DNA from: Streptomyces sp. NBC_01231
GTDB taxonomy: Bacteria > Actinomycetota > Actinomycetes > Streptomycetales > Streptomycetaceae
Assembly: GCA_035999765.1 (NCBI GenBank)
Contig: CP108521.1
Location: forward strand, 6,944,001 to 7,008,000
DNA length: 64,000 bases
Direction of reading: 5' to 3'
Shown: piece after piece, positions 2,772 to 50,776 of the stretch
How the letters are laid out: each line of letters begins with the position of its first letter
How positions within the stretch are numbered: position 1 is the stretch's first letter
Made by a program: the position numbers and the translations under genes
The notes under the pieces: generated by a model
Seen by the model: the letters and a program-made list of their open reading frames with translations, nothing else
What the model was told of the DNA's origin: nothing
Database searches by the model: none

Positions 2772-3068
2772 TCAGGCGTTCGGCTCGCTCTGTTCGGGCG
2801 CGTCGCCGGGCGGTTGCTCGGCGACGAAGGATCCCTTGCCGCGCACGGTGACGATCAGCCCGCGCTCACGCAGTTCCTGTGCGGCCCGCCGTGCCGTGAG
2901 TCGCGCCACGCCGTACTCGTCGGCCAGGTGGTTCTCCGAGGGGATGGGCCTGTCCGGAGCCAGCTCCCCGGACGCGATTTTCCCGGCGATGACGTCGGCC
3001 AGCTGCACGTAGAGCGGTCTCGCGCTCATCGGGTCCAGGGTCGCCTTCGGCTGTGCCTTATCGCTCAT
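2772..3068 (-). CDS. Small GntR-family transcriptional regulator
   Basis: 98-residue DNA-binding protein consisting almost only of a GntR winged helix. 'PLYVQLADVIAGKIASGELA' opens the domain, 'PSENHLADEYGVARLTARRA' is the helix-turn-helix and 'RGLIVTVRGKGSFVA' is the wing. It lacks the large UTRA or FadR effector domain, so it is a very short type that ends about 20 residues after the wing with an acidic tail. It lies 108 bp upstream of, and in the same direction as, the sugar importer operon, which suggests but does not prove local control. The ATG lies 6 nt after a TACGTT -10 box, so the mRNA may be leaderless. Confidence 0.88.
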   Translation of the reverse strand: MSDKAQPKATLDPMSARPLYVQLADVIAGKIASGELAPDRPIPSENHLADEYGVARLTARRAAQELRERGLIVTVRGKGSFVAEQPPGDAPEQSEPNA

Positions 3069-3111: not shown

Positions 3112-3225
3112 CCCTCTGCACTTGTATGCAGAGGGCTGCATCCAGGTGTAGCTTCGGAGACGAAAGACCCCGGCGAGGTGGCTAGACCTCCCGGGGCACG
3201 GCCAACGCTTACAAGGAGCGTCGAC
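3112..3225 (+). promoter_or_regulatory. Structured 5' leader of cassette A (two hairpins, SD-enclosing)
   Basis: Three elements are visible. First, a perfect 9-bp inverted repeat CCCTCTGCA / TGCAGAGGG (3112-3120 and 3127-3135). Second, a GC-rich hairpin: CCCCGG (3168-3173) pairs with CCGGGG (3191-3196), and AGGT (3176-3179) pairs with ACCT (3186-3189). Third, a small hairpin ACGCT (3205-3209) / AGCGT (3217-3221) whose loop and 3' arm contain the Shine-Dalgarno AAGGAG (3213-3218). The last 33 bases before the start codon match the leader of cassette B (49313-49345, minus strand) at 31 positions. Copy A cannot encode the short peptide that copy B could, which argues for conservation as RNA or DNA rather than protein. 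Confidence 0.65.
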
Positions 3226-3549
3226 ATGCACGACCTTATCCGCCGCAACCTCGAATGGCTGCGCCTCCTCTTCGCCCCCGGCACCGGCAAACGGCGCCGC
3301 CCTCGCCGTCACCCCAGCCCTTACCTCACCCCCGTACGCCCCTCCGCCCCCCTGCCGCGCCACCGCTCCCCGTACGGCCTCCCCACCCCCCTCGACGGCA
3401 CCGCCTCCGCCCTCGTGCGCCCCTACCTCGCCGCGCTCGAACAGGAAGCCGCACTCCAGCAACACCGCCGCCTGGCCCTCGTCCTCGCCGCCGACTTCGG
3501 GATCGACCTCGACCGGCACCTGATCGGCGCGCAGGAGGTGGCCGCCTGA
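3226..3549 (+). CDS. Cassette A protein 1, unknown function
   Basis: 107-residue protein that I do not recognise from any named family. It starts MHDLIRRNLEWLRLLFAPGT, continues with a basic Pro/Arg-rich linker (GKRRRPRRHPSPYLTPVRPS) and ends with a predicted helix 'VRPYLAALEQEAALQQHRRLA' followed by 'DFGIDLDRHLIGAQEV'. The ATG at 3226 is chosen because AAGGAG lies 7 nt upstream. A diverged copy lies at 49004-49312 (minus strand), sharing the pattern RPYL-x-A-x-E, the Ala/Arg-rich helix and GID. The stop overlaps the start of the next gene (TGATG), so the two proteins are made together. The basic linker would suit nucleic-acid or membrane contact, but that is speculation. Confidence 0.75.
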   Translation: MHDLIRRNLEWLRLLFAPGTGKRRRPRRHPSPYLTPVRPSAPLPRHRSPYGLPTPLDGTASALVRPYLAALEQEAALQQHRRLALVLAADFGIDLDRHLIGAQEVAA

Positions 3550-3899
3550 TGGAACCCACAACGCGACACGTCACGGACCCCACGACGACCTCCGCCTCAC
3601 CCCGTCTCCTGCCCTGGCCGTCCCCCGGCGGCAATCCGTGTTACCTGGTCACGGACAGCGGCGGCGGGTACGTGTCCCGCCTCGCCGACGAGCTGGAGGC
3701 CACGCAACTGGCCATGGGCGTCGACGTGCTCGGCCTCGCCCGCACGGTGCTGGAGGACCCCACGTCGCCGTACACCGAGGTCCGCTACGCCGGCATCCGG
3801 CTCGCCGAGTGCCTGACCGACGCCCTGCGCGTCGCCGAGTCCCGGGGCCTGCGCCTGCCCGCACCGGACACGGAGGGCACCCAGGATGCCTACGCCTAA
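3549..3899 (+). CDS. Cassette A protein 2, unknown function
   Basis: 116-residue soluble protein of unknown function, translationally coupled to the preceding gene through a one-base TGATG overlap. Landmarks shared with the copy at 48642-49007 are LLPW, G-x-PCYL, GY-x-SRLAD-xx-EATQL and SRG-x-RLP-x-P near the C-terminus. Sequence between these motifs has diverged strongly, so the paralogues are old or were acquired separately. The protein is mostly predicted helix after residue 40, with a disordered Thr/Pro-rich N-terminus. Its stop overlaps the stop of the convergent response-regulator gene by 4 bp. No enzyme motif is visible. Confidence 0.75.
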   Translation: MEPTTRHVTDPTTTSASPRLLPWPSPGGNPCYLVTDSGGGYVSRLADELEATQLAMGVDVLGLARTVLEDPTSPYTEVRYAGIRLAECLTDALRVAESRGLRLPAPDTEGTQDAYA

Positions 3900-40466: not shown

Positions 40467-40560
40467 ACGCGGGTCGAGCCACGCCGCCGCTGCGGCACTG
40501 ACCTCTTTGACCCTTTGATTCGTTGACTCCTTTTGTGACCCGGTGGGGGATGGAATACAC

Positions 40561-43500
40561 ATGGTGTTTGGCATAGGCACCTCAAGGCGTGGTGCGCGCG
40601 ACAGACGGAGACGGGGCAGACGCCTGGTCGTGCCCGCCCTGGCGCTGGCGCTGCTGGCCCCGGCCGGACCTCTGCAGGCCGCAGTAGCCGAGAGCGGTGG
40701 GCTGGGGCGCCCGGACGTGCCCAAACCTCGGGCCAGCAAGGTTCATGAGATGAAGGGCCTGGGCGCGAAGAAGGCTCGTGAGAAGGTCGCCAAGGGCGAG
40801 GAGGCCGACGCCGCGCAAGCCAGGCGCGCCGCAGCCGAGGAGAAGGCCACCTGGCCCGAGCCGGACACGGCCACCATCAGCCTCGCCAGTGACCAGCCGG
40901 GCACCGCCGACCTGGGCGGGACGCCGGTGGCCGTGCAGCCCGAGCACCGCGCCCGCACCGCACCTGCAGCGGGGAACGCGCAGGTCACCGTCCTGGACCA
41001 GAGTGCTGCACACAAGGCGGGCGTCACCGGTGTGCTGCTCACCGCGGCAGCGGACTCCGCCGGGAAAGCGGACATCAGCGTCGACTACACGGACTTCGCC
41101 TCCGCGATCGGTGGCGGCTGGGCACAACGCCTACGGCTCGTGCAACTGCCGGCCTGCGCACTGACGACACCGCGGAAGGCGGAGTGCCGACAGCAGACCC
41201 CCCTCAAGTCCGACAACGACCTGGCGAAGCAGTCGGTGTCCGCAGAGGCGCAGTTGCCCGAAGCGCAGTCGGGTGGTCGCAGCACCCAGTCCGTCTCCAA
41301 AGCCGATGCACCCGGTGTGACGGTGCTGGCAGTGACGGCCGCGTCGGCCGGATCCGGCCAGTCTGCCAAGGGCACTGGCGACTATTCAGCCACTGCCCTG
41401 TCCACGTCCTCCTCGTGGCAGGCCGGCGGCAGCTCCGGCGCGTTCACCTGGAACTATGACTTCGGCCTCCCACCCGCAGCGGCCGGACCCACACCCACCC
41501 TCGGCCTGTCCTACGACTCGGGCAGCATCGACGGCGAGACCGCCAACACCAACAATCAAGGCAGCGCGGTCGGCGAGGGCTTCACACTGACCGAGTCCTA
41601 CATCGAGCGCAGCTACGTCAGCTGCGACAAGGACGGCGACGACCACGACAAGGTCTACGACCGCTGCTGGAAGTACGACAACGCCCGTCTCGTCCTCAAC
41701 GGCAAGGCCACCCGCCTAATCAAGGACAGCCAGGGCAAGTGGCACCTTGAGGACGACGACGCCTCGACAGTGACCCGCTCGACGGGAGCCGACAACGGCG
41801 ACGACAACGGCGAGTACTGGACTGTCACCACTGGGGACGGCGCCAAGTACGTCTTCGGCCTCAACAAGCTCGACGGCGCAAGCGACCAGCGCACCAATTC
41901 CACCTGGACCGTCCCAGTCTTCGGCGACGACTCCGGCGAACCGGGCTACGACAAGGGCAGTGCCTTCTCCGGCCGGGCCCTGACCCAAGCCTGGCGGTGG
42001 AACCTCGACTACGTCGAAGACACCCGTGGCAACGCCGCCACCTACTGGTACACCAAGGAATCCAACTACTACAAGAAGAACAAGTCCGAGACCGCCAACG
42101 CCTCCTACACCCGTGGCGGTTACCTCAAGGAGTTCAAGTACGGGTTGCGCAAGGACGCGTTGTTCACCGACGACGCCGACGCGAAGGTGATCCTCTCGCA
42201 CGCCGAGCGCTGCACGGTCGGTGAGTGCAAGGAACTCACCAAGGACACGGCCGAGCACTGGCCGGATGTCCCGTTCGACGCGATATGCACCGACGGCGAC
42301 ACAGACTGCAACGCGGCAGGCCCGGTCTTCTTCTCCCGCAAACGGCTCACCAACATCGACACCTTCTCCTGGGACGCCGCCGACAAGAAGTACGCGCCGG
42401 TGGATTCCTGGGCCCTGACCGAGGACTACCTCGACGCCGGTGACATCGGCGACACCACCGACCACGTTCTGGTCCTGAAGTCGATCAAGCAGACCGGCAA
42501 GGCCGGCACCGCCATCGACGTCAAACCGATCACCTTCACTTACCAGTTGCGGCCCAATCGCGTCGACGGCACAGAGAACATCCTGCCGCTCAAGCGGCAT
42601 CGAATCGAGACGATCACCTCCGAGACGGGGGCGATCACCACGGTCACGCTGTCCCAGCCCGAGTGCAAGCGCGGCGAGGTCCTCGGTGCCGCCCAGGACA
42701 CCAACACACGCCCGTGCTACCCGCAGTTCTGGAACATCAACGGCGCCACCGAAGCCTCGGTGGACTGGTTCAACAAGTACCGCGTCCTCGCCATCAACGT
42801 TGCCGACCCCACAGGCCAGAACGAGTTGGTCGAGTACGCCTACGACTACAAAGGCGCGGCCTGGCACTACGACGACGACCCATTCACCCCCAAAGACGAG
42901 CGGACCTGGTCCCAGTGGCGCGGCTACCGCGATGTCACCGTCCGCACCGGCGCGACGGACACCGCGCGTTTGACGACGGTCTCCCGCTACCTGCAGGGCA
43001 TGCACGGCGACAAGAACAAGGGCGGCACCACCAAAGCCGTCAGCGTCGATCCGCTGCTGGACACCGACGTCGACTTCCCTGCGCTGACCGACAGCGACTC
43101 CTACAACGGCAAGTTACTCCAGCAGGTCACCTACAACGGCACCCAGCTCATCTCCACCACCTACACCAACTACATCAACAAGGAGACCGCCACCCAGTCG
43201 GTTCCGGACGTAGCCGACCACACAGCTCGCTGGGTCAGGCCCAGCACGTCCTACGAGAGCACCTACCTGACCGCGCCCAAGGCTTGGCGCACTCACGTCG
43301 CCACCATCCGCTACGACGACCTGGGCATGGTCAAGGAAGTTGACGACTACGGGCAGAAGGGCGTGGGCGGCGACGAAACCTGCACCCGCACCTGGTACGC
43401 CCGCAACGCCGACGCTGGCATCATCGGTCTGGTCGCCCGTACCCGCGCCGTCGCCAAGGAGTGCTCGGTCGCCGACAGCGCGCTGGATCTGCCCACGGAC

Positions 43501-46500
43501 GACTCGCGCCGCGGTGACGTCCTGTCGGACACGGCGACCGCCTACGACAACGCCACCTGGTCGGAGTCGATGAAGCCGTCCAAGGGCCTGCCCACCTGGG
43601 CAGGGCGCGCCAAGGCTTACTCCGGCGGCGCCCCGAACTGGCAGGTCACCACCACCACCGCCTACGACTCCCTTGGCCGCCCGACCGCGATCACCAACGC
43701 CGACCAGAACCAGAAGCCGACCACGACCGCCTATACCCCCACCGACGCGGGGCCACTGACCAAGACCGTCGTTACCAACCCGCTGGGTCACAAGGCCACC
43801 AGCTTCCTCGACCCGCGCAGCGGCCAGCCGCTTCGCACCTACGACGCGAACCTGAACAAGACCGAGCTCACCTACGACGCGCTCGGCCGACTCACCCAGG
43901 TGTGGCTGCCCAACCGCTCCAGCGCAAGCCAGAGCCCCAGCAAGAAGTTCACCTACAACATCAGCAACACCAAGCAGTCCTCGATCTCCACCTCGACCCT
44001 GAAAAGGGACGGCGAGACCTACAACACCGGCTACGCCATATTCGATGCGTTGCTCCGGCCGCTACAGACCCAGAGCGAGACCCCCAACGGGGGCCGTCTG
44101 CTGACAGATACCCGCTACGACTCCCGGGGCCTGGCCTACGAGACGCAGGCGGACATCTTCGACAAGGACAGCACCCCCAACGGTACTTACACTCGTGCCG
44201 AATACGGCGAGGCACCGACCCAGACCGCCACCGAATTCGACGGCGCAGGCCGTCCCACTGTCAGCACAATGTTGGTGTACGGGGTCAAGAAGTGGTCCAC
44301 CACCACGAGTTACACCGGTGACTCCACCGCCACCACCGCCACGGACGGCGGCAGCGCCACCCGGACCATCACCGACATCCGCGGCCGCACGGTGGAGAGC
44401 CGCGAGTACACAGGAAAGTCCCCGGCCGACACCCAGTACGGCGCCACGCTCGGCACGTCTTATATGTCGACAAGGTTCGCGTATACCTCCGACGGGCTGC
44501 AGAAGCAGATCACCGGCCCGGACGACGCCAAGTGGTCCTACACCTACGACTTGTTCGGCCGCAAGGTCAAGACTATGGACCCCGACGCGGGCACCAGCAC
44601 CACTGGCTACGACATCCTCGACCGGGTAGTCAAATCCACCGACTCGCGCAACAAGTCCGTCCTGACCGACTACGACGTGCTCGATCGAATCACCGGTACC
44701 TGGACGGGCACGAAGTCGGAGGCGACCCAACTCACCGCCACTACTTACGACACCCTGCAGAAGGGGCTGCCCGACACCTCCACCCGCTATATCGGAGGCA
44801 AGACCGGACAGGCCTACACCAACACCGTCACCGCCTACGACGTCCTGTCCCGCCCCACAACAACGAAGCTGGACCTGCCCAAGGCGGATCCCTTCGTCAA
44901 GGCAGGAACGCCGTCCACGCTGGAATTCGAGACCGCCTACAACCTCGACGGCACCGTCAAATACACCAAGGAGCCGGCCCTGGGCGGCCTGCCCTCCGAG
45001 ATCGTCGAGTACGGCTACAACAGTGTCGGCGGCATCACTTCTGTCGGCGGCTCCACCGGCTACCTCCTGGCTGCCAGCTACTCGCCTCTGGGCGAGCCCC
45101 AACAACTCGCCCTGGGCGCGGCGAGTAGTGACGATCAAAAGAAGACCTACATCAACAACATTTTTGAGGAGGGCACCGGCCGACTCACCCGCAGTTACAT
45201 CACCGACCAGACCCACGGCTACATGCCGCAGGACCTCAACTACACCTACGACCAGGCTGGAAACGTCACATCCATCGCCGACCCCACCAACCTCGGCGGC
45301 ACCTCCTCGGCCGAAACCCAGTGCTTCGCCTACGACAGCCATCGCCGATTGACGGAGGCCTGGACACCCAGCACCCAAAAGTGCACCGACCAGCCCAGCG
45401 CGAGCAGCCTGTCCGGACCGGCCCCGTACTGGACCAGCTACGACTACAACAAGGCCGGCCAGCGCACCACGGAAACCGTCCACAAGACCACCGGCGACCA
45501 CAAGACCACGTACTGCTACACCAAGACCGACCAGGCCCACTTCCTGACCGGCACCACCACCAAGAACGATTGCACCAGCCCCGAGAAGACCTACACCCCC
45601 GACGCGGCCGGCAACACCACCAAACGCCCCGGCGCGACCGGAACCCAGGACCTCAAGTGGTCCGACGAAGGCAAGCTCAGCACGCTCACTGAAGGCGCCA
45701 AGGCAACCGACTACATCTACGGCGCTGACGGCACCCTCCTCATCCGCAACGCCCAAGGCGGCGAGCGGATCCTGTACGCCGGAGCCACCGAACTCCACCT
45801 CCGCGCCAACGGCACCACCTGGGCCCAGCGCCACTACACCGCAGCCGACCAGAGCATTGCCACGCGCTCCAACGAAACCGGCAGCAACAAGCTCACCTAC
45901 CTCGCCGGCGACCACCACGGAACCCAGTCCCTGGCCATCGGCGCTGACAGCACACAGAGCGTAAGCAAGCGCTATTTCACCCCCTTCGGCGCCGAACGCG
46001 GCAAACCCGTCGGCACAGCCTGGCCCGATGACAAGGGATTCCTCGGCAAGACCAACGACAAGACCACCGGCCTCACCCACGTAGGCGCCCGCGAATATGA
46101 CTCGGCCGTCGGGCAGTTCATCAGCGTCGATCCGGTGTTGAACCCGAGCGACCCGCAACAGCTCAACGGATACGCCTACAGCGACAACAATCCGGTCACC
46201 CACTCTGACCCCACCGGCCTGTGCCCCCGTGATCTGTGCCCGAACGGCGGTCAAAACACCAACAACGACTTTCCGGGCGCCATCGGCGGTCCGCCCGCCG
46301 ACGGCCGCACGGGCATGAGCGCCTGGGACAGCGGAGGCCACGGCGGCAACAAGGCCAGAGGTGGCGGTGGGAGCAGTGGGGGCGGCGGCACCACCGTCAG
46401 GCAACAGGTTGTCACTCACCTCATCGAATACGGACCCACGACTTACGATGAGGACACGCTGCTCCGCTATTACACTGCGCACACCGCAGCGAACTACGGC

Positions 46501-47496
46501 GGAGACTACTGGAATACTGGAGTGGGCGAGGGCGACAGGCTTGCCATGGCCTGCTATGGCAGGGACGGGTGCATGAAGGCTCGCGCCTACCTTCTCGAGA
46601 CGCATGATGTGGCAGGAGCTAAATACCTCGCCGCCACCTACTGCCTCGACCACGCCAAGCGATGCGCCAGCAACGCCAACTACGAGAAACTGACCTCTGA
46701 CCTGATGCAGGAATCCCTTGAGCTGATCGCGCTCGGGCTGGGTGGAGGAAAGTACGGGTGCAAGTGCTTCTTGGCGGGCACCGACGTACTGATGGCAGAC
46801 AAGGCCACCAAGGACATCGAAGACGTGAAGGTCGGTGACAAGGTTCTTGCTACAGACCCTCGCACCGGCAAGACAGTGGCACGCAAAGTCACACGTCTTA
46901 TACGAACTGACGGTGACAAGTACTTCAACCGAATATCCATCGCGACTCGTGATGGCATTGAGGAAATCACGGCGACTCACGAGCATCCCTTCTGGTCGCC
47001 GTCGGAAGGGAATTGGGTCGCCGCGGGTGAGCTCCGCGCAGGGATGACTCTCCGTACGGACACCGGGTCGGTCGTCGTCGTGACCGGCAACTCCTCGTTC
47101 ACCCGGCACGCGCGTACCTACAACCTGACTGTGGAAGGCCTGCACACGTACTATGTGCTGGCGGGCGAGACCCCGGTCCTCGTACACAACAGCAACTGCA
47201 ATCTCAACACGCTCACACGTCCGCAATCCGACGATATTGCGAAATATCTTGGATATACGAAGACCAAGAAGTTGTCTGCAGGAAGGACCCCAATTTGGGA
47301 GAATAAGAAAGCTGGAGGTGGTCAGCCTAAGTCCATCACCTTCGACCGGACCGGACACAATAAGGAAGCTGTATTCAAGGGATCAAATGACCGGAATCCG
47401 TTCCAGTCGACCAAGGACTCGGCCCGAGATGGAACCTACGGACTGGACATCGGGCCGAATGGAGAGCTACGGGGACTCGAATGGCTGGCGAAATGA
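40561..47496 (+). CDS. RHS-repeat polymorphic toxin with Hint domain and C-terminal toxin tip
   Basis: 2311-residue secreted protein. A signal-like N-terminus (LVVPALALALLAPAGPLQAA) leads to a long shell of YD/RHS repeats ('YDALGRLTQVW', 'YDILDRVVKSTD'). The RHS-associated core ends at D1883 ('HSDPTGL'). A Gly-rich linker and helical spacer (about 1900-2060) lead to a Hint autoprocessing domain starting near C2067/C2069 ('CFLAGTDVLMADK'), with 'THEHPFW' and final H2209-N2210 ('TPVLVHN'). The last 101 residues ('FDRTGHNKEAVFKGS', 'DGTYGLDIGPNGELRGLEWL') resemble the toxin-21-like C-terminal family, a presumed nuclease; this name is tentative. A TTA codon lies at 43114-43116. The next gene overlaps by 4 bp and should be its immunity gene. 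Confidence 0.9.
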   Translation: MVFGIGTSRRGARDRRRRGRRLVVPALALALLAPAGPLQAAVAESGGLGRPDVPKPRASKVHEMKGLGAKKAREKVAKGEEADAAQARRAAAEEKATWPEPDTATISLASDQPGTADLGGTPVAVQPEHRARTAPAAGNAQVTVLDQSAAHKAGVTGVLLTAAADSAGKADISVDYTDFASAIGGGWAQRLRLVQLPACALTTPRKAECRQQTPLKSDNDLAKQSVSAEAQLPEAQSGGRSTQSVSKADAPGVTVLAVTAASAGSGQSAKGTGDYSATALSTSSSWQAGGSSGAFTWNYDFGLPPAAAGPTPTLGLSYDSGSIDGETANTNNQGSAVGEGFTLTESYIERSYVSCDKDGDDHDKVYDRCWKYDNARLVLNGKATRLIKDSQGKWHLEDDDASTVTRSTGADNGDDNGEYWTVTTGDGAKYVFGLNKLDGASDQRTNSTWTVPVFGDDSGEPGYDKGSAFSGRALTQAWRWNLDYVEDTRGNAATYWYTKESNYYKKNKSETANASYTRGGYLKEFKYGLRKDALFTDDADAKVILSHAERCTVGECKELTKDTAEHWPDVPFDAICTDGDTDCNAAGPVFFSRKRLTNIDTFSWDAADKKYAPVDSWALTEDYLDAGDIGDTTDHVLVLKSIKQTGKAGTAIDVKPITFTYQLRPNRVDGTENILPLKRHRIETITSETGAITTVTLSQPECKRGEVLGAAQDTNTRPCYPQFWNINGATEASVDWFNKYRVLAINVADPTGQNELVEYAYDYKGAAWHYDDDPFTPKDERTWSQWRGYRDVTVRTGATDTARLTTVSRYLQGMHGDKNKGGTTKAVSVDPLLDTDVDFPALTDSDSYNGKLLQQVTYNGTQLISTTYTNYINKETATQSVPDVADHTARWVRPSTSYESTYLTAPKAWRTHVATIRYDDLGMVKEVDDYGQKGVGGDETCTRTWYARNADAGIIGLVARTRAVAKECSVADSALDLPTDDSRRGDVLSDTATAYDNATWSESMKPSKGLPTWAGRAKAYSGGAPNWQVTTTTAYDSLGRPTAITNADQNQKPTTTAYTPTDAGPLTKTVVTNPLGHKATSFLDPRSGQPLRTYDANLNKTELTYDALGRLTQVWLPNRSSASQSPSKKFTYNISNTKQSSISTSTLKRDGETYNTGYAIFDALLRPLQTQSETPNGGRLLTDTRYDSRGLAYETQADIFDKDSTPNGTYTRAEYGEAPTQTATEFDGAGRPTVSTMLVYGVKKWSTTTSYTGDSTATTATDGGSATRTITDIRGRTVESREYTGKSPADTQYGATLGTSYMSTRFAYTSDGLQKQITGPDDAKWSYTYDLFGRKVKTMDPDAGTSTTGYDILDRVVKSTDSRNKSVLTDYDVLDRITGTWTGTKSEATQLTATTYDTLQKGLPDTSTRYIGGKTGQAYTNTVTAYDVLSRPTTTKLDLPKADPFVKAGTPSTLEFETAYNLDGTVKYTKEPALGGLPSEIVEYGYNSVGGITSVGGSTGYLLAASYSPLGEPQQLALGAASSDDQKKTYINNIFEEGTGRLTRSYITDQTHGYMPQDLNYTYDQAGNVTSIADPTNLGGTSSAETQCFAYDSHRRLTEAWTPSTQKCTDQPSASSLSGPAPYWTSYDYNKAGQRTTETVHKTTGDHKTTYCYTKTDQAHFLTGTTTKNDCTSPEKTYTPDAAGNTTKRPGATGTQDLKWSDEGKLSTLTEGAKATDYIYGADGTLLIRNAQGGERILYAGATELHLRANGTTWAQRHYTAADQSIATRSNETGSNKLTYLAGDHHGTQSLAIGADSTQSVSKRYFTPFGAERGKPVGTAWPDDKGFLGKTNDKTTGLTHVGAREYDSAVGQFISVDPVLNPSDPQQLNGYAYSDNNPVTHSDPTGLCPRDLCPNGGQNTNNDFPGAIGGPPADGRTGMSAWDSGGHGGNKARGGGGSSGGGGTTVRQQVVTHLIEYGPTTYDEDTLLRYYTAHTAANYGGDYWNTGVGEGDRLAMACYGRDGCMKARAYLLETHDVAGAKYLAATYCLDHAKRCASNANYEKLTSDLMQESLELIALGLGGGKYGCKCFLAGTDVLMADKATKDIEDVKVGDKVLATDPRTGKTVARKVTRLIRTDGDKYFNRISIATRDGIEEITATHEHPFWSPSEGNWVAAGELRAGMTLRTDTGSVVVVTGNSSFTRHARTYNLTVEGLHTYYVLAGETPVLVHNSNCNLNTLTRPQSDDIAKYLGYTKTKKLSAGRTPIWENKKAGGGQPKSITFDRTGHNKEAVFKGSNDRNPFQSTKDSARDGTYGLDIGPNGELRGLEWLAK

Positions 47497-48350
47497 GCAA
47501 GGAGCTGATCATCAGCCCTCGCAGTGAGCGCGTGCGAGACGAGCTGGCAAACGCAGCTGCCTGGAGTTCGTATGCGGCGGAACTTCGCCAGGTACTCGGA
47601 GCGGTGATCGTGAAGAGCGGCGCTGCCTTCCTAGAGGTCGGCGAGCTACTGGTGAGTGAACCCCTTCCCGACAGGCACCTCGGCCTTTACAACGGTGTGG
47701 AGGTCGAGTCCCCGCAGACGATTGATCTTGTCGAGGGAATGGCAGCCGGGCGCGGGCCGTACTGTCGGCTTTCCATGCCGGGGCGACTTCAGATCGAGTC
47801 GGGATGGGACGGGGCTGTACACCTCTACACGACACGAGCGGTAGCCGCCGAGCTGGCGTGGGTCCATGGCCAGAGTGTGATTCTCCAGTGGCGCGACGCA
47901 GCTCCTGAGCCCACAGAGATCTCGAAGCCCGTTAGTGCTGTAGTGGACGAGAGTTTCTGGGCGATGGTGGCGGAGGTCTCCGAGCGCTTCACATTGTTGT
48001 GCGAGCGCTGGGCGCACGGCGCCTACGGGTGCCGATGGTTCCGCGTGACTCGGGAGAACGTATCCGAACTGGCCCGACTCATGCGGCCGCGCTCACTGGT
48101 CTGCGTGGCTAGCGATCCGGAGTTGCAACCCAGGCCTGAGATATTGGAGGACGACTTCACCGCCTTCGTAGCCCCTCTGCTGCCCGGCGAGTTGGCCTAC
48201 CGGGCCTACCCTGGTGGCGCCGATGCGCTCTCCGAGGTCACGAGTGAGGGTTTCTCACTCATGCTGGCGGACAAGGTGATGGGCGATCGGTGCGCCGTGG
48301 TGCCGGACTCGGACGGGGTGAACAGGGCGCAGTGGGAGGGTCCAGGCTAA
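47493..48350 (+). CDS. Candidate immunity protein for the RHS toxin
   Basis: 285-residue soluble protein that I cannot place in a named family. The ATG at 47493 overlaps the toxin stop (ATGA), the usual toxin-immunity arrangement; an in-frame ATG at 47481 is possible. The protein has a mixed alpha/beta look with Trp-rich segments ('VAAELAWVHGQSVILQWRDA', 'CERWAHGAYGCRWFRVTREN') and no signal peptide, so it would act inside the cell against the processed toxin tip. A strong terminator follows 168 bp downstream, so it is the last gene of the toxin operon. Its role is inferred from position only. Confidence 0.7.
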   Translation: MSKELIISPRSERVRDELANAAAWSSYAAELRQVLGAVIVKSGAAFLEVGELLVSEPLPDRHLGLYNGVEVESPQTIDLVEGMAAGRGPYCRLSMPGRLQIESGWDGAVHLYTTRAVAAELAWVHGQSVILQWRDAAPEPTEISKPVSAVVDESFWAMVAEVSERFTLLCERWAHGAYGCRWFRVTRENVSELARLMRPRSLVCVASDPELQPRPEILEDDFTAFVAPLLPGELAYRAYPGGADALSEVTSEGFSLMLADKVMGDRCAVVPDSDGVNRAQWEGPG

Positions 48351-48641: not shown

Positions 48642-49007
48642 TCAAGGCGTCGATGGCCTGGCGTTGCAGGCGGAGTCAGACTTGGGGTAGATGCTGGCAG
48701 TGATGTCGAGACCATCGTTCGCGGGTGTGGGCAGGCGAGCGCCGCGGCTCACCGCGATGCGGTGCACGTTGCCGAGTGCTTGAGTCAACTGGACGGCGAG
48801 TAGATGCAGTTCCCCCTGCGTCCATTGCCGCTTGTCCAGGATGTGCCTGGCCTCCTGAAAGAGTTCCCCAGCCAGGGAAAGCTGGGTTGCCTCCGTGTTG
48901 TCGGCGAGCCGGGACAGATATCCGGCCCCGTCGCCTGCGAGGTAGCACGGCTTACCCTCGGGCCCGGCCCACGGCAGCAGGCGCAGCTGTGGTGTCCCGC
49001 TGGTCAT
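48642..49007 (-). CDS. Cassette B protein 2, unknown function
   Basis: 121-residue soluble protein, diverged copy of the protein at 3549-3899. Shared landmarks are LLPW, G-x-PCYL, GY-x-SRLAD-xx-EATQL and SRG-x-RLP-x-P. The C-terminus is extended by about 20 residues (LDITASIYPKSDSACNARPS) absent from copy A. The ATG at 49007 overlaps the stop of the preceding gene by 4 bp, matching the coupled order of copy A. No enzymatic motif is visible and I do not recognise the family. The gene lies inside the accessory island between the RHS toxin module and the broken XRE regulator. Confidence 0.75.
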   Translation of the reverse strand: MTSGTPQLRLLPWAGPEGKPCYLAGDGAGYLSRLADNTEATQLSLAGELFQEARHILDKRQWTQGELHLLAVQLTQALGNVHRIAVSRGARLPTPANDGLDITASIYPKSDSACNARPSTP

Positions 49008-49312
49008 GCTGGGACCTCCACTCCGTGGTTCAGCCGGGGACCGATGTCGATACCGCGCGCTGCCAGCCGGAGCGCGCGACGCCGAGCCTGCTGTTTCTGT
49101 GCCTCTCGCCGCTCTTGTGCGTACAGGTACGGGCGGATCAGCCCGACCTCCTCGCCGCGCAATACCCGGGCGGCCGATACGTGAGCCGGACATGCGGTTG
49201 CCGCCTCTGCGGCAAGGACGGCGGATGGGTGAGCAGGTCTGCGATGGCGTCCCAGTGCGGGCCACAGCAGCTGCAGCAGCGGCTCGAAGATGCGGACGAT
49301 ACAGTGCGGCAC
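49004..49312 (-). CDS. Cassette B protein 1, unknown function
   Basis: 102-residue protein, paralogue of the one at 3226-3549. It reads MPHCIVRIFEPLLQLLWPAL at the start, has a basic patch (GRHRRPAHPS), and ends with 'IRPYLYAQERREAQKQQARR' and 'RGIDIGPRLNHGVEV', which align with RPYL, the Ala/Arg-rich helix and GID of copy A. The start is GTG 49312; AAGGAG lies 7 nt upstream, in the same leader context as copy A. It contains three cysteines, none in a recognisable metal motif. The XRE-type regulator gene lies 140 bp upstream on the same strand and may control it. Confidence 0.75.
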   Translation of the reverse strand: MPHCIVRIFEPLLQLLWPALGRHRRPAHPSAVLAAEAATACPAHVSAARVLRGEEVGLIRPYLYAQERREAQKQQARRRALRLAARGIDIGPRLNHGVEVPA

Positions 49313-49371
49313 GTCGACGCTCCTTGTCAGCGTTGGCCATGCCCCCGGGACTGTTCGCCCGGTCGCGGGGG
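49313..49371 (-). promoter_or_regulatory. Structured 5' leader of cassette B
   Basis: On the minus strand a GC-rich hairpin (49362-49371 with 49342-49351, nine pairs and one mismatch, 10-nt loop) is followed by the small hairpin ACGCT/AGCGT (49333-49329 with 49321-49317). The 7-nt loop and the 3' arm of the latter contain AAGGAG. The layout and all but two of the last 33 bases match cassette A, although the proteins encoded downstream are only distantly similar. Confidence 0.65.
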
Positions 49372-49413
49372 TTCTGACGAGACGTCAGCCTGCCCACCGG
49401 CGAGGCACGGCGA

Positions 49414-49431
49414 TTGCACCGAAAGGTGCAA
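49414..49431. promoter_or_regulatory. Perfect inverted repeat upstream of cassette B
   Basis: TTGCACC-GAAA-GGTGCAA (49414-49431) is a 7+7 inverted repeat with a tetraloop spacer, between the XRE-type gene and cassette B. It is 20 bp after the XRE stop. It could be a terminator or an operator for the XRE regulator. Cassette A has a different inverted repeat at the corresponding place. Confidence 0.5.
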
Positions 49432-49451: not shown

Positions 49452-50649
49452 CTATATCCCTACCCACTCTGCGTACTGTGCCAGCGAGCTGTTGCGCGCC
49501 CGCTCTTGGCGCTTCAGGGCCAGCACGGTCTCCCGCACGGTCGGGTGGTAGCGGGTCTGCTGCGGAGCGATGCGCCGGGCCTGGTGCAGGCAGTCCAACG
49601 CCTGCTCCGGGTGGCCCGCCCAGGTGTGGGCCCGACCGAGGTCCATCCAGTGGTGCCCGGCCCGGGAGCGGGTCCAGCCACGAGGGATACGTACGTTCTC
49701 GGCGAGTTCGATCGCGCGCCCGAAGTCGTCGGCCTCCGAGGCGATGGCCACCGCGTGCACACCGACGTTCACCGGCCCCCAGGTGACACCGAAGTCGGGC
49801 AACTCCCCTGTGGCCTGGGCAAGGGCACGGGCCTCGGCCAGACGGGCGTCAGCATGGTCCCTGTCCTTCATCCGGCCCGCGATGGTCGCGGCACGCAAGT
49901 GCAGCATGCCCCGCATCGCCTCAATGCCCGCCGGGCGGCGTGACTCCTGGCCATCGAGGTCGCGCAGTCCTTTGTCGACCACCCGCAGCCCTACGTCGTA
50001 CCGACCCGACGACATCGTGGTCTGCGCGCGCAGGAAGGCATGCATGGCGGCCAGCCCCGGCTCGTCGGCGCGCGGCGCGGTCCACGCCAGCCGGTCCAGC
50101 GCGATGGTCGCCAGATCGAGGAAGCCGAGCTTCCAGGCCACGGTGAACACACACCGGAACGTCTCCGCCAAACACTCGTAGGACAGCCGCTGCCCTTCTC
50201 CCGGTACTGGTGTGCACCGCCTGCACCGACTCGTCGATCAGTACGGGCAAGTCGCGCACCATGTCCGTGTACTGCGCCTGACGACGCTGCTCCAGAGCCC
50301 GCTGGACATCCGTCCAGATCAACGCGGCCGGGCGCGGAGCCGTCTCCCAGTCCAGAGCGATGTCCCAGTTCTCCAGCCCCTCACGGATCGGCTGGATCAG
50401 CGCATCCATCCGGTCCCGGCGCAGTTCCTCGGCATACGGCTGCCCGAGCAACTCGGACGTGGAAACACCCAACGCGCGGGCACAGGCCGCAACGAGAGCC
50501 GGAGAGGCGGGCTTCTGTCCGCACTCGGCCTTCGACAACAGCGACTTCGACACGTTGGCCCGCATCGCCAGCCCCTGCTGCGTCAGGCCGCGCTGCTTCC
50601 GGATACGGGCGATCCGAGCGCCGGTGTGCTCCTCGATGCTCTGCGACAC
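49452..50649 (-). pseudogene. XRE-family regulator with TPR-like C-terminus, frameshifted
   Basis: The first part (GTG 50649 onward) has an XRE helix-turn-helix, 'RIRKQRGLTQQGLAMRANVS', then 'KSLLSKAECGQKPASPALVA'. This frame leaves the family pattern after 'ESVQAVHTSTGR'. One base later another frame gives 'GEGQRLSYECLAETFRCVFT' and runs to 49452 with helical TPR-like repeats. Removing one C from the CCC at 50200-50202 (plus strand) restores a single protein of about 398 residues. So the gene is broken by a +1 insertion in a short homopolymer, or the sequence has an error there. Such regulators often sit beside cassette-type small genes in Streptomyces. GGAG lies 6 nt before the GTG. Confidence 0.85.
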
Positions 50650-50776
50650 GGCGAACTCCGTTCTGCGGCAACATTCAGACGCTACCCCCGCCACACGGCT
50701 CCGGATCGCCGAACAGTGATCACCCCCGGCTGCCCGCGCGTCCACACCGCGCCAGGCCGACGCTTACGCCAGTCGC

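Follow-up and report, generated by a model that had tools for sequence, protein, structure and literature searches.

Among the closest described systems are the SAS and ESAS sequences of cluster K mycobacteriophages and a comparable pair from Microbacterium phages of cluster EF, as set out in the available portions of the source papers (PMC3203893, PMC7302621, PMC12699233). In the accessible text of the cluster K study, its authors find no general support for RNA pairing in the ESAS repeats, and judge such pairing unlikely (PMC3203893). T4-type homing endonucleases (I-TevI, segB and Aeh1 mobE) are described, in the available part of the source, as having hairpins that sequester the ribosome-binding site (RBS) (PMC2988022), and ANTAR-target RNAs, in the available excerpt, as dual stem-loops which, in actinobacteria, may overlap the RBS (PMC8164766).

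Here we describe a folded mRNA leader that recurs in front of many unrelated genes, in Streptomyces, in other actinobacteria and in some phages, and that therefore probably confers a shared control of translation initiation. On sequence grounds, we give a probability of about 0.72 to the reading that such elements form a new family of structured 5′ leaders acting in cis on translation initiation. Two of them, copies A and B, lie in the window, by which we mean the whole 64,000-nucleotide stretch of Streptomyces sp. NBC_01231 DNA analysed, each in front of a pair of genes:

2772..3068, minus strand: small GntR-type helix-turn-helix regulator gene, divergent from copy A (Pfam GntR, 2.5e-15)
3112..3135, no strand assigned: inverted repeat CCCTCTGCA-6-TGCAGAGGG, candidate GntR operator, read directly
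3149..3154, plus strand: TANNNT, a −10-like hexamer 19 nt 5′ of hairpin 1 (sequence and positional enrichment)
3159..3228, plus strand: copy A leader element including the ATG (covariance-model match, 87.5 bits)
3168..3196, plus strand: copy A hairpin 1, CCCCGG, bulged C 3174, GAGGT / ACCTC, CCGGGG (covariation)
3201..3225, plus strand: copy A hairpin 2, ACGCT (3205-3209)/AGCGT (3217-3221), with lower G-C, C.A and C-G (covariation, lower-stem analysis)
3213-3218, plus strand: copy A Shine-Dalgarno sequence (SD) AAGGAG, in hairpin 2
3226..3549, plus strand: gene 1A, small basic 'RPY' protein, 107 aa
3549..3899, plus strand: gene 2A, 116 aa, overlapping the gene 1 stop
48642..49007, minus strand: gene 2B, 121 aa
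49004..49312, minus strand: gene 1B, 102 aa, GTG start
49310..49380, minus strand: copy B leader element including the GTG (covariance-model match, 77.1 bits)
49313..49337, minus strand: copy B hairpin 2, with the SD at 49320-49325 (position from the alignment of leaders, covariation)
49342..49371, minus strand: copy B hairpin 1 (position from the alignment of leaders, covariation)
49414..49431, no strand assigned: inverted repeat TTGCAC-6-GTGCAA, candidate operator
49452..50745, minus strand: XRE-TPR regulator gene in two overlapping frames, upstream of copy B

The first-pass annotation, made from the letters of the window, had claimed that the two leaders are nearly identical in front of distantly related protein pairs that could not be recognised, and both statements were borne out. 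Positions 3193-3225 (+) of copy A and 49313-49345 (−) of copy B share 31/33 bases, and the next best 33-mer anywhere in the window agrees at 21/33, despite protein identities of only 36% for gene 1 and 44% for gene 2. None of genes 1A, 2A, 1B and 2B reached the cut-off against Pfam and NCBIfam. The predicted structure of gene 2 (pLDDT 80), a beta hairpin with two long helices, gave zero matches to the PDB at E ≤0.001. The DNA-binding regulator reported beside each cassette is also present, GntR being divergent from copy A and XRE-TPR lying upstream of copy B on the same strand; the split of the latter over two frames suggests a frameshift or a sequencing error. Elsewhere in the window, 40543-48350 (+) holds a 2317-aa ORF that we take to be of RHS-repeat type; it seems to include a stretch resembling Hint and to vary at its C-terminus, and a 289-aa ORF comes next, an arrangement presumably like that of polymorphic toxin/immunity pairs.

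Within the 11.34 Mb genome, a 24-base core of the leader was matched with ≤3 mismatches only by copies A and B, and the reversed-pattern control gave zero matches under the same conditions. A diverged third copy, found as a weaker covariance-model match ~3.1 Mb away, fronts another relative of gene 1. Rfam 15, at gathering thresholds, had zero matches over the whole window; at relaxed E-values, five matches were listed in 15 further loci, none of them covering a leader. An Rfam sodF sRNA match was seen upstream of one leader locus (L081:159-251 (−), E 2.1e-9). Folded singly, the copy A leader gave z-scores of −3.2 and −2.5, and the copy B leader −1.1 and +0.4, no better than shuffles. These single-sequence folds lend weak support, so that the case rests on comparative evidence.

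A pattern search for the core with ≤2 mismatches found it in 31/295 genus genomes, with zero hits for the reversed pattern in the same 295; read in the correct orientation, these loci carry the same leader in front of quite different genes. R1, a covariance model built from 31 aligned pattern-found leaders, matched at least once in 215/295 genomes of the genus draw at E 0.01, including 185 of the 265 that had given it no sequence, the remaining 30 having supplied it. The class draw yielded R1 matches in 44/296 genomes and 15/114 genera at E 0.001. R2, a model built from 103 mixed leaders, matched 33/296 genomes and 25/198 genera of the phylum draw at E 0.0001; the genus, class and phylum draws overlap one another. 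Genomes with the element hold from 1 to at least 20 copies, numbers that are lower bounds because no more than 17 candidates were scored in any one genome when a search covered over 40 of them (G089 gave 17, then 20). Closely spaced leaders were observed as a pair 735 bp apart in G528 (L141/L150) and as two within 260 bp in G819 (L378). At least 120 viral stretches matched, and those searched were the 80 listed and three others. The sets used below comprise 151 cellular leaders (149 distinct) and 87 viral leaders (80 distinct), with two common to both. The earlier description of a cis-regulatory leader gains support from the covariation described next, but its 'duplicated cassette' proved too narrow, as the family fronts dozens of unrelated genes.

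Covariation across homologues, whose absence had been named as the outcome against a leader, is strong in both hairpins. Among the 31 pattern-selected leaders, hairpin 1 covaries strongly; hairpin 2 was not assessable there, its sequence having belonged to the search pattern, a limit lifted by the model-found leaders. In A4, a set of 55 model matches (53 distinct rows; 54/55 from other genera), two-sided changes occur in 5/5 hairpin-2 pairs and 10/11 hairpin-1 pairs. Two-sided cells number 183 in A4 against 48.4 after shuffling, 175 against 50.5 in A5 (97 Streptomyces-genus leaders), 219 against 65.7 in A8 (87 viral matches) and 84 against 24.9 in A13 (22 matches from more distant actinobacteria), each reached by 0/500 shuffles, in a control that ignores relatedness and on alignments that were fitted to the model and lean towards its structure. 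A9, which comprises 103 mixed diverse leaders drawn mostly from A4, A5 and A8, has two-sided changes in 15/16 pairs and 304 two-sided cells, against 87.3 shuffled and 6-26 in slid controls, with 95.4% of its cells pairing. Counts of pairs and of pair types are less extreme than those of cells, being reached by 46 and 48/500 shuffles in A8 and by 11 and 72/500 in A13; pair types in A9 were matched in 25/500. Mutual information, which is structure-free though computed on the same model-fitted alignments, ranks hairpin pairs as the top 5 in A5 and the top 7 in A4.

Both leaders in the window contain the two hairpins that had been described for them, but the AAGGAG said to be enclosed by the second is only partly so: AAGG lies in the hairpin-2 loop and AG in the 3′ arm. 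Across the family, the stem sequence of hairpin 2 varies freely (ACGCT/AGCGT, CAGCT/AGCTG, CCTG/CAGG and AACCT/AGGTT were all seen), the SD is kept in or beside the loop and the hairpin ends at the start codon. At its base, the outermost pair is G-C in 98/101 leaders of the unfiltered A9 and A-U in 2/101. The second position is C.A in 102/126 cellular and 59/67 viral leaders, in a table for which an outermost G-C was the selection filter; in A9 it is a non-standard pair in 84/101, and the third position is C-G in 89/101. A fully paired lower stem was therefore rejected. Taken together, the four lower positions of A9 have 29 two-sided cells against 11.6 shuffled (0/500), and sliding this stem by −1 gave a higher covariation score (0.173 vs 0.117). 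Lower-stem parsing omitted 4/238 leaders, and one parse of the cellular leaders omitted 4/151. The SD is predicted to be unpaired with a mean probability of 0.56 (148 cellular leaders) or 0.65 (85 viral leaders), an intermediate exposure that would make hairpin 2 a modest gate and not a tight lock. The hairpin is weak (−3.9 to −11.2 kcal/mol among the 20 leaders listed), so the gating may be mild.

Position relative to the gene is fixed as well. The next frame opens with a start codon exactly at the model end in 147/151 cellular and 83/87 viral leaders, a placement that is partly built into the model. The 225 distinct first-gene proteins, cellular and viral, fall into 64 clusters, 40 of them singletons; they include small basic 'RPY' proteins close to GntR or XRE genes and, in viral contigs, frequently proteins of homing-endonuclease kinds. 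Pfam scanning of 142/147 cellular first genes identified HATPase_c_2 in 5, serine recombinase domains in 5, DUF6415 in 3, HNH_3 in 2, and KilAC and Bro-N domains in 1; most others are short unknowns. A gene-1 profile matched 77/150 cellular and 2/85 viral first genes, counts to be read with reserve, since five rounds of iteration on low-complexity proteins may have made the profile drift. Among 79 viral first genes, the families found were HNH (12), HNH_5 (12), HNH_3 (10), endonuclease VII (7), MUG113 (5), T5orf172 (4), NUMOD3 (2), LAGLIDADG_3 (1) and GIY-YIG (1), overlapping counts whose union was not summed. One cluster holds 38/77 distinct viral first-gene proteins and 5 cellular ones.

Distant actinobacteria contributed 13 scanned first genes, from 22 phylum-set matches. 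Two are of the Cas1 family (E 1e-43 and 5e-36). An HTH_17 domain is present in two more, one of which also has a sub-cut-off match to AlpA. Another gene matches a phage integrase, again sub-cut-off, and a further one encodes a DDE transposase with a doubtful start, placed 4 bases into the model. The leaders of both Cas1 genes, the integrase and the transposase score just 39-44 bits. The Cas1 proteins, ~500 aa long, lie directly 3′ of their leader matches (L377:465-2003 and L383:504-2003; 44 and 40 bits).

Named phages carry the element as well. A 70-base BLAST query matched no phage; two viral-type queries matched 53 records, of which eight phage stretches were examined. R1 matched seven of the eight at E <1e-6: Microcystis phage MinS1, Microbacterium phage Footloose, Rhodococcus phage REQ2, Arthrobacter phage ArV2 and the Gordonia phages Squiddly, Spooky and Guacamole. 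The eighth, Reedo, had only a weak R1 match elsewhere. The annotated CDS begins at the predicted codon in MinS1 and ArV2; REQ2 has it 2 bases further on, and the annotated starts of Footloose, Spooky and Guacamole are in frame with the predicted ones. Record-wide searches found one or two copies per phage. In Squiddly (L329:2058-2120), the leader GTG opens a 70-codon frame that differs from the annotated endonuclease VII; this gene may be frameshifted or controlled differently.

The available part of a Streptomyces avermitilis transcript study gives TANNNT as the −10 consensus (PMC8780764). This hexamer starts 17-24 nt 5′ of hairpin 1 in 51/144 cellular leaders (1.1 expected) and 31/79 viral leaders (0.7 expected), and is absent in exact form from that interval in most leaders; a further count of its positions used 137/147 leaders, 10 being dropped. 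Its enrichment just upstream indicates that the element is probably the whole 5′ UTR, with the transcript predicted to begin a few bases 5′ of hairpin 1. Copy A fits, with TANNNT at 3149-3154. Copy B has no TANNNT in the 17-24 nt interval and may use another promoter or depend on readthrough from the upstream regulator gene. Transcription beginning downstream of the hairpins in both copies, an outcome that had been named as speaking against a regulatory leader, left no sign. TTTT occurs in 0/151 cellular and 1/87 viral leaders, and an attenuator was rejected for want of a U-tract.

In the mechanism we propose, the conserved outer stem of hairpin 1, its bulged C and the GG after it would make this hairpin a recognition module, or else a fixed fold or 5′ cap, and hairpin 2 would hold the SD in its loop and 3′ arm with its base abutting the start codon, so that initiation would need hairpin 2 to be opened. 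The frequency of this opening would most likely be set by a factor, or a fold, that reads hairpin 1 together with the linker. The module is portable and stands in front of genes of a probably dosage-sensitive kind: homing endonucleases, recombinases and cassettes of small genes next to GntR or XRE regulators. Sequence conservation beyond the needs of pairing favours recognition by a trans factor or a ligand; the analysis found no trans factor.

The main rival is a constitutive, portable 5′ UTR, in which hairpin 1 would guard the 5′ end of the mRNA against decay and hairpin 2 would present the SD in its loop, for dependable expression without any switching. It would suit a hairpin 1 lying close to the 5′ end of an element that is likely the entire 5′ UTR, an SD mostly in the loop, and a distribution over many unrelated genes in far-apart hosts. 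A protective hairpin, however, needs neither a bulged C that is C in 103/103 leaders (C16), nor a linker whose first G (G49) is kept in 103/103 and second in 101/103, nor a conserved C.A mismatch beside the start codon, and we consider this explanation rather unlikely.

The same conservation, unneeded for pairing, is what speaks for the next rival, a riboswitch in which hairpin 1, the linker and the base of hairpin 2 would form a small-molecule pocket that holds or frees the start site; to C16 and G49 may be added the AC directly 5′ of the start codon (A in 101/102, C in 98/102) and the A-rich 3′ side of loop 1. Switching would perhaps trade hairpin 2 for a pairing between the linker (YGGY) and the 3′ arm, an alternative put forward by RNAalifold that would compete with hairpin 2. 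In A9 this pairing forms in 89.0% of cells and its covariation score was reached by only 2/500 shuffles, but 89.0% is the level set by composition (88.3% in shuffles) and the two-sided changes number just 2. The associated genes, moreover, have no obvious metabolite theme, and no hairpin-1-to-hairpin-2 pair stands among the best 24 mutual-information pairs of each set, which together leave a riboswitch quite improbable. A third rival, in which the leader works as DNA, being an operator or a piece of a promoter bound by one shared regulator, would agree with the DNA-binding regulators common among neighbours (the nearest upstream ORF is divergent in 89/142, and 115/142 upstream ORFs scanned, selected by a codon-bias guess, include GntR 40, HTH_31 29 and MerR_1 5), but is very unlikely, because stem sequence changes while pairing is kept, strand and distance to the start codon are fixed with the SD inside, and the separate upstream inverted repeats at 3112-3135 (with similar repeats 5′ of the leader in L018, L020 and L030) and 49414-49431 appear to be better operator candidates than the leaders.

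Beyond the preferred reading, a structured leader acting in cis on translation initiation, lies a broader one that we hold to be unlikely: throughout Actinomycetota, some common cell factor or metabolite would read a single class of RNA switch. This class would time the production of the enzymes with which mobile elements cut and join DNA (serine recombinases, integrases, Cas1 and homing endonucleases of several folds) along with regulated small-gene cassettes, and would have spread by travelling with these genes. The leaders constitute an apparently undescribed, widespread RNA family, in bacteria that produce numerous antibiotics and in phages, that ties translation control to mobile DNA enzymes, marks likely start codons and gives many unknown genes a common control element. 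It raises a testable question: is there one factor or signal that reads this leader in hosts so unlike each other, and if so, which?

A literature search, thin on subscription journals, found no similar element. The leaders have a conserved RNA structure overlapping the initiation region, as is expected of a cis-acting translational leader. From ANTAR targets they differ in having a conserved outer stem and a bulged C instead of the A1/G4 hexaloop, which occurs in hairpin 1 of 1/103 leaders, six-base loops being present in 72/103. With the T4-type hairpins they share an RNA structure covering the RBS of phage homing endonucleases; those structures are individual in the available account, which has I-TevI relieved by a late promoter inside the structure (PMC2988022), whereas the leaders form one conserved two-hairpin family with an apparent promoter of their own upstream. 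SAS/ESAS, as far as the available portions of the papers describe them, are alike in being repeated at the start codons of varied gene families with the SD inside and a second unit just upstream, and are unlike in sequence, including around the SD. The 13-bp SAS consensus GGGATAGGAGCCC is not found at the SD position of the leaders. In a 30-kb stretch of phage Anaya, none of 16 SAS matches overlapped the listed R1 or R2 matches, the best of which (17-18 bits; E 0.049 and 0.0074, respectively) lie away from SAS sites. ESAS are described in those papers as 17-bp imperfect inverted repeats lying upstream; the inverted unit upstream in the leaders is of other sequence, and in the leaders both hairpins covary as RNA. 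Judging by its sequence, SAS may form a GGG/CCC hairpin with the SD in the loop and, by analogy, the leader family may help to explain the mycobacteriophage SAS/ESAS repeats.
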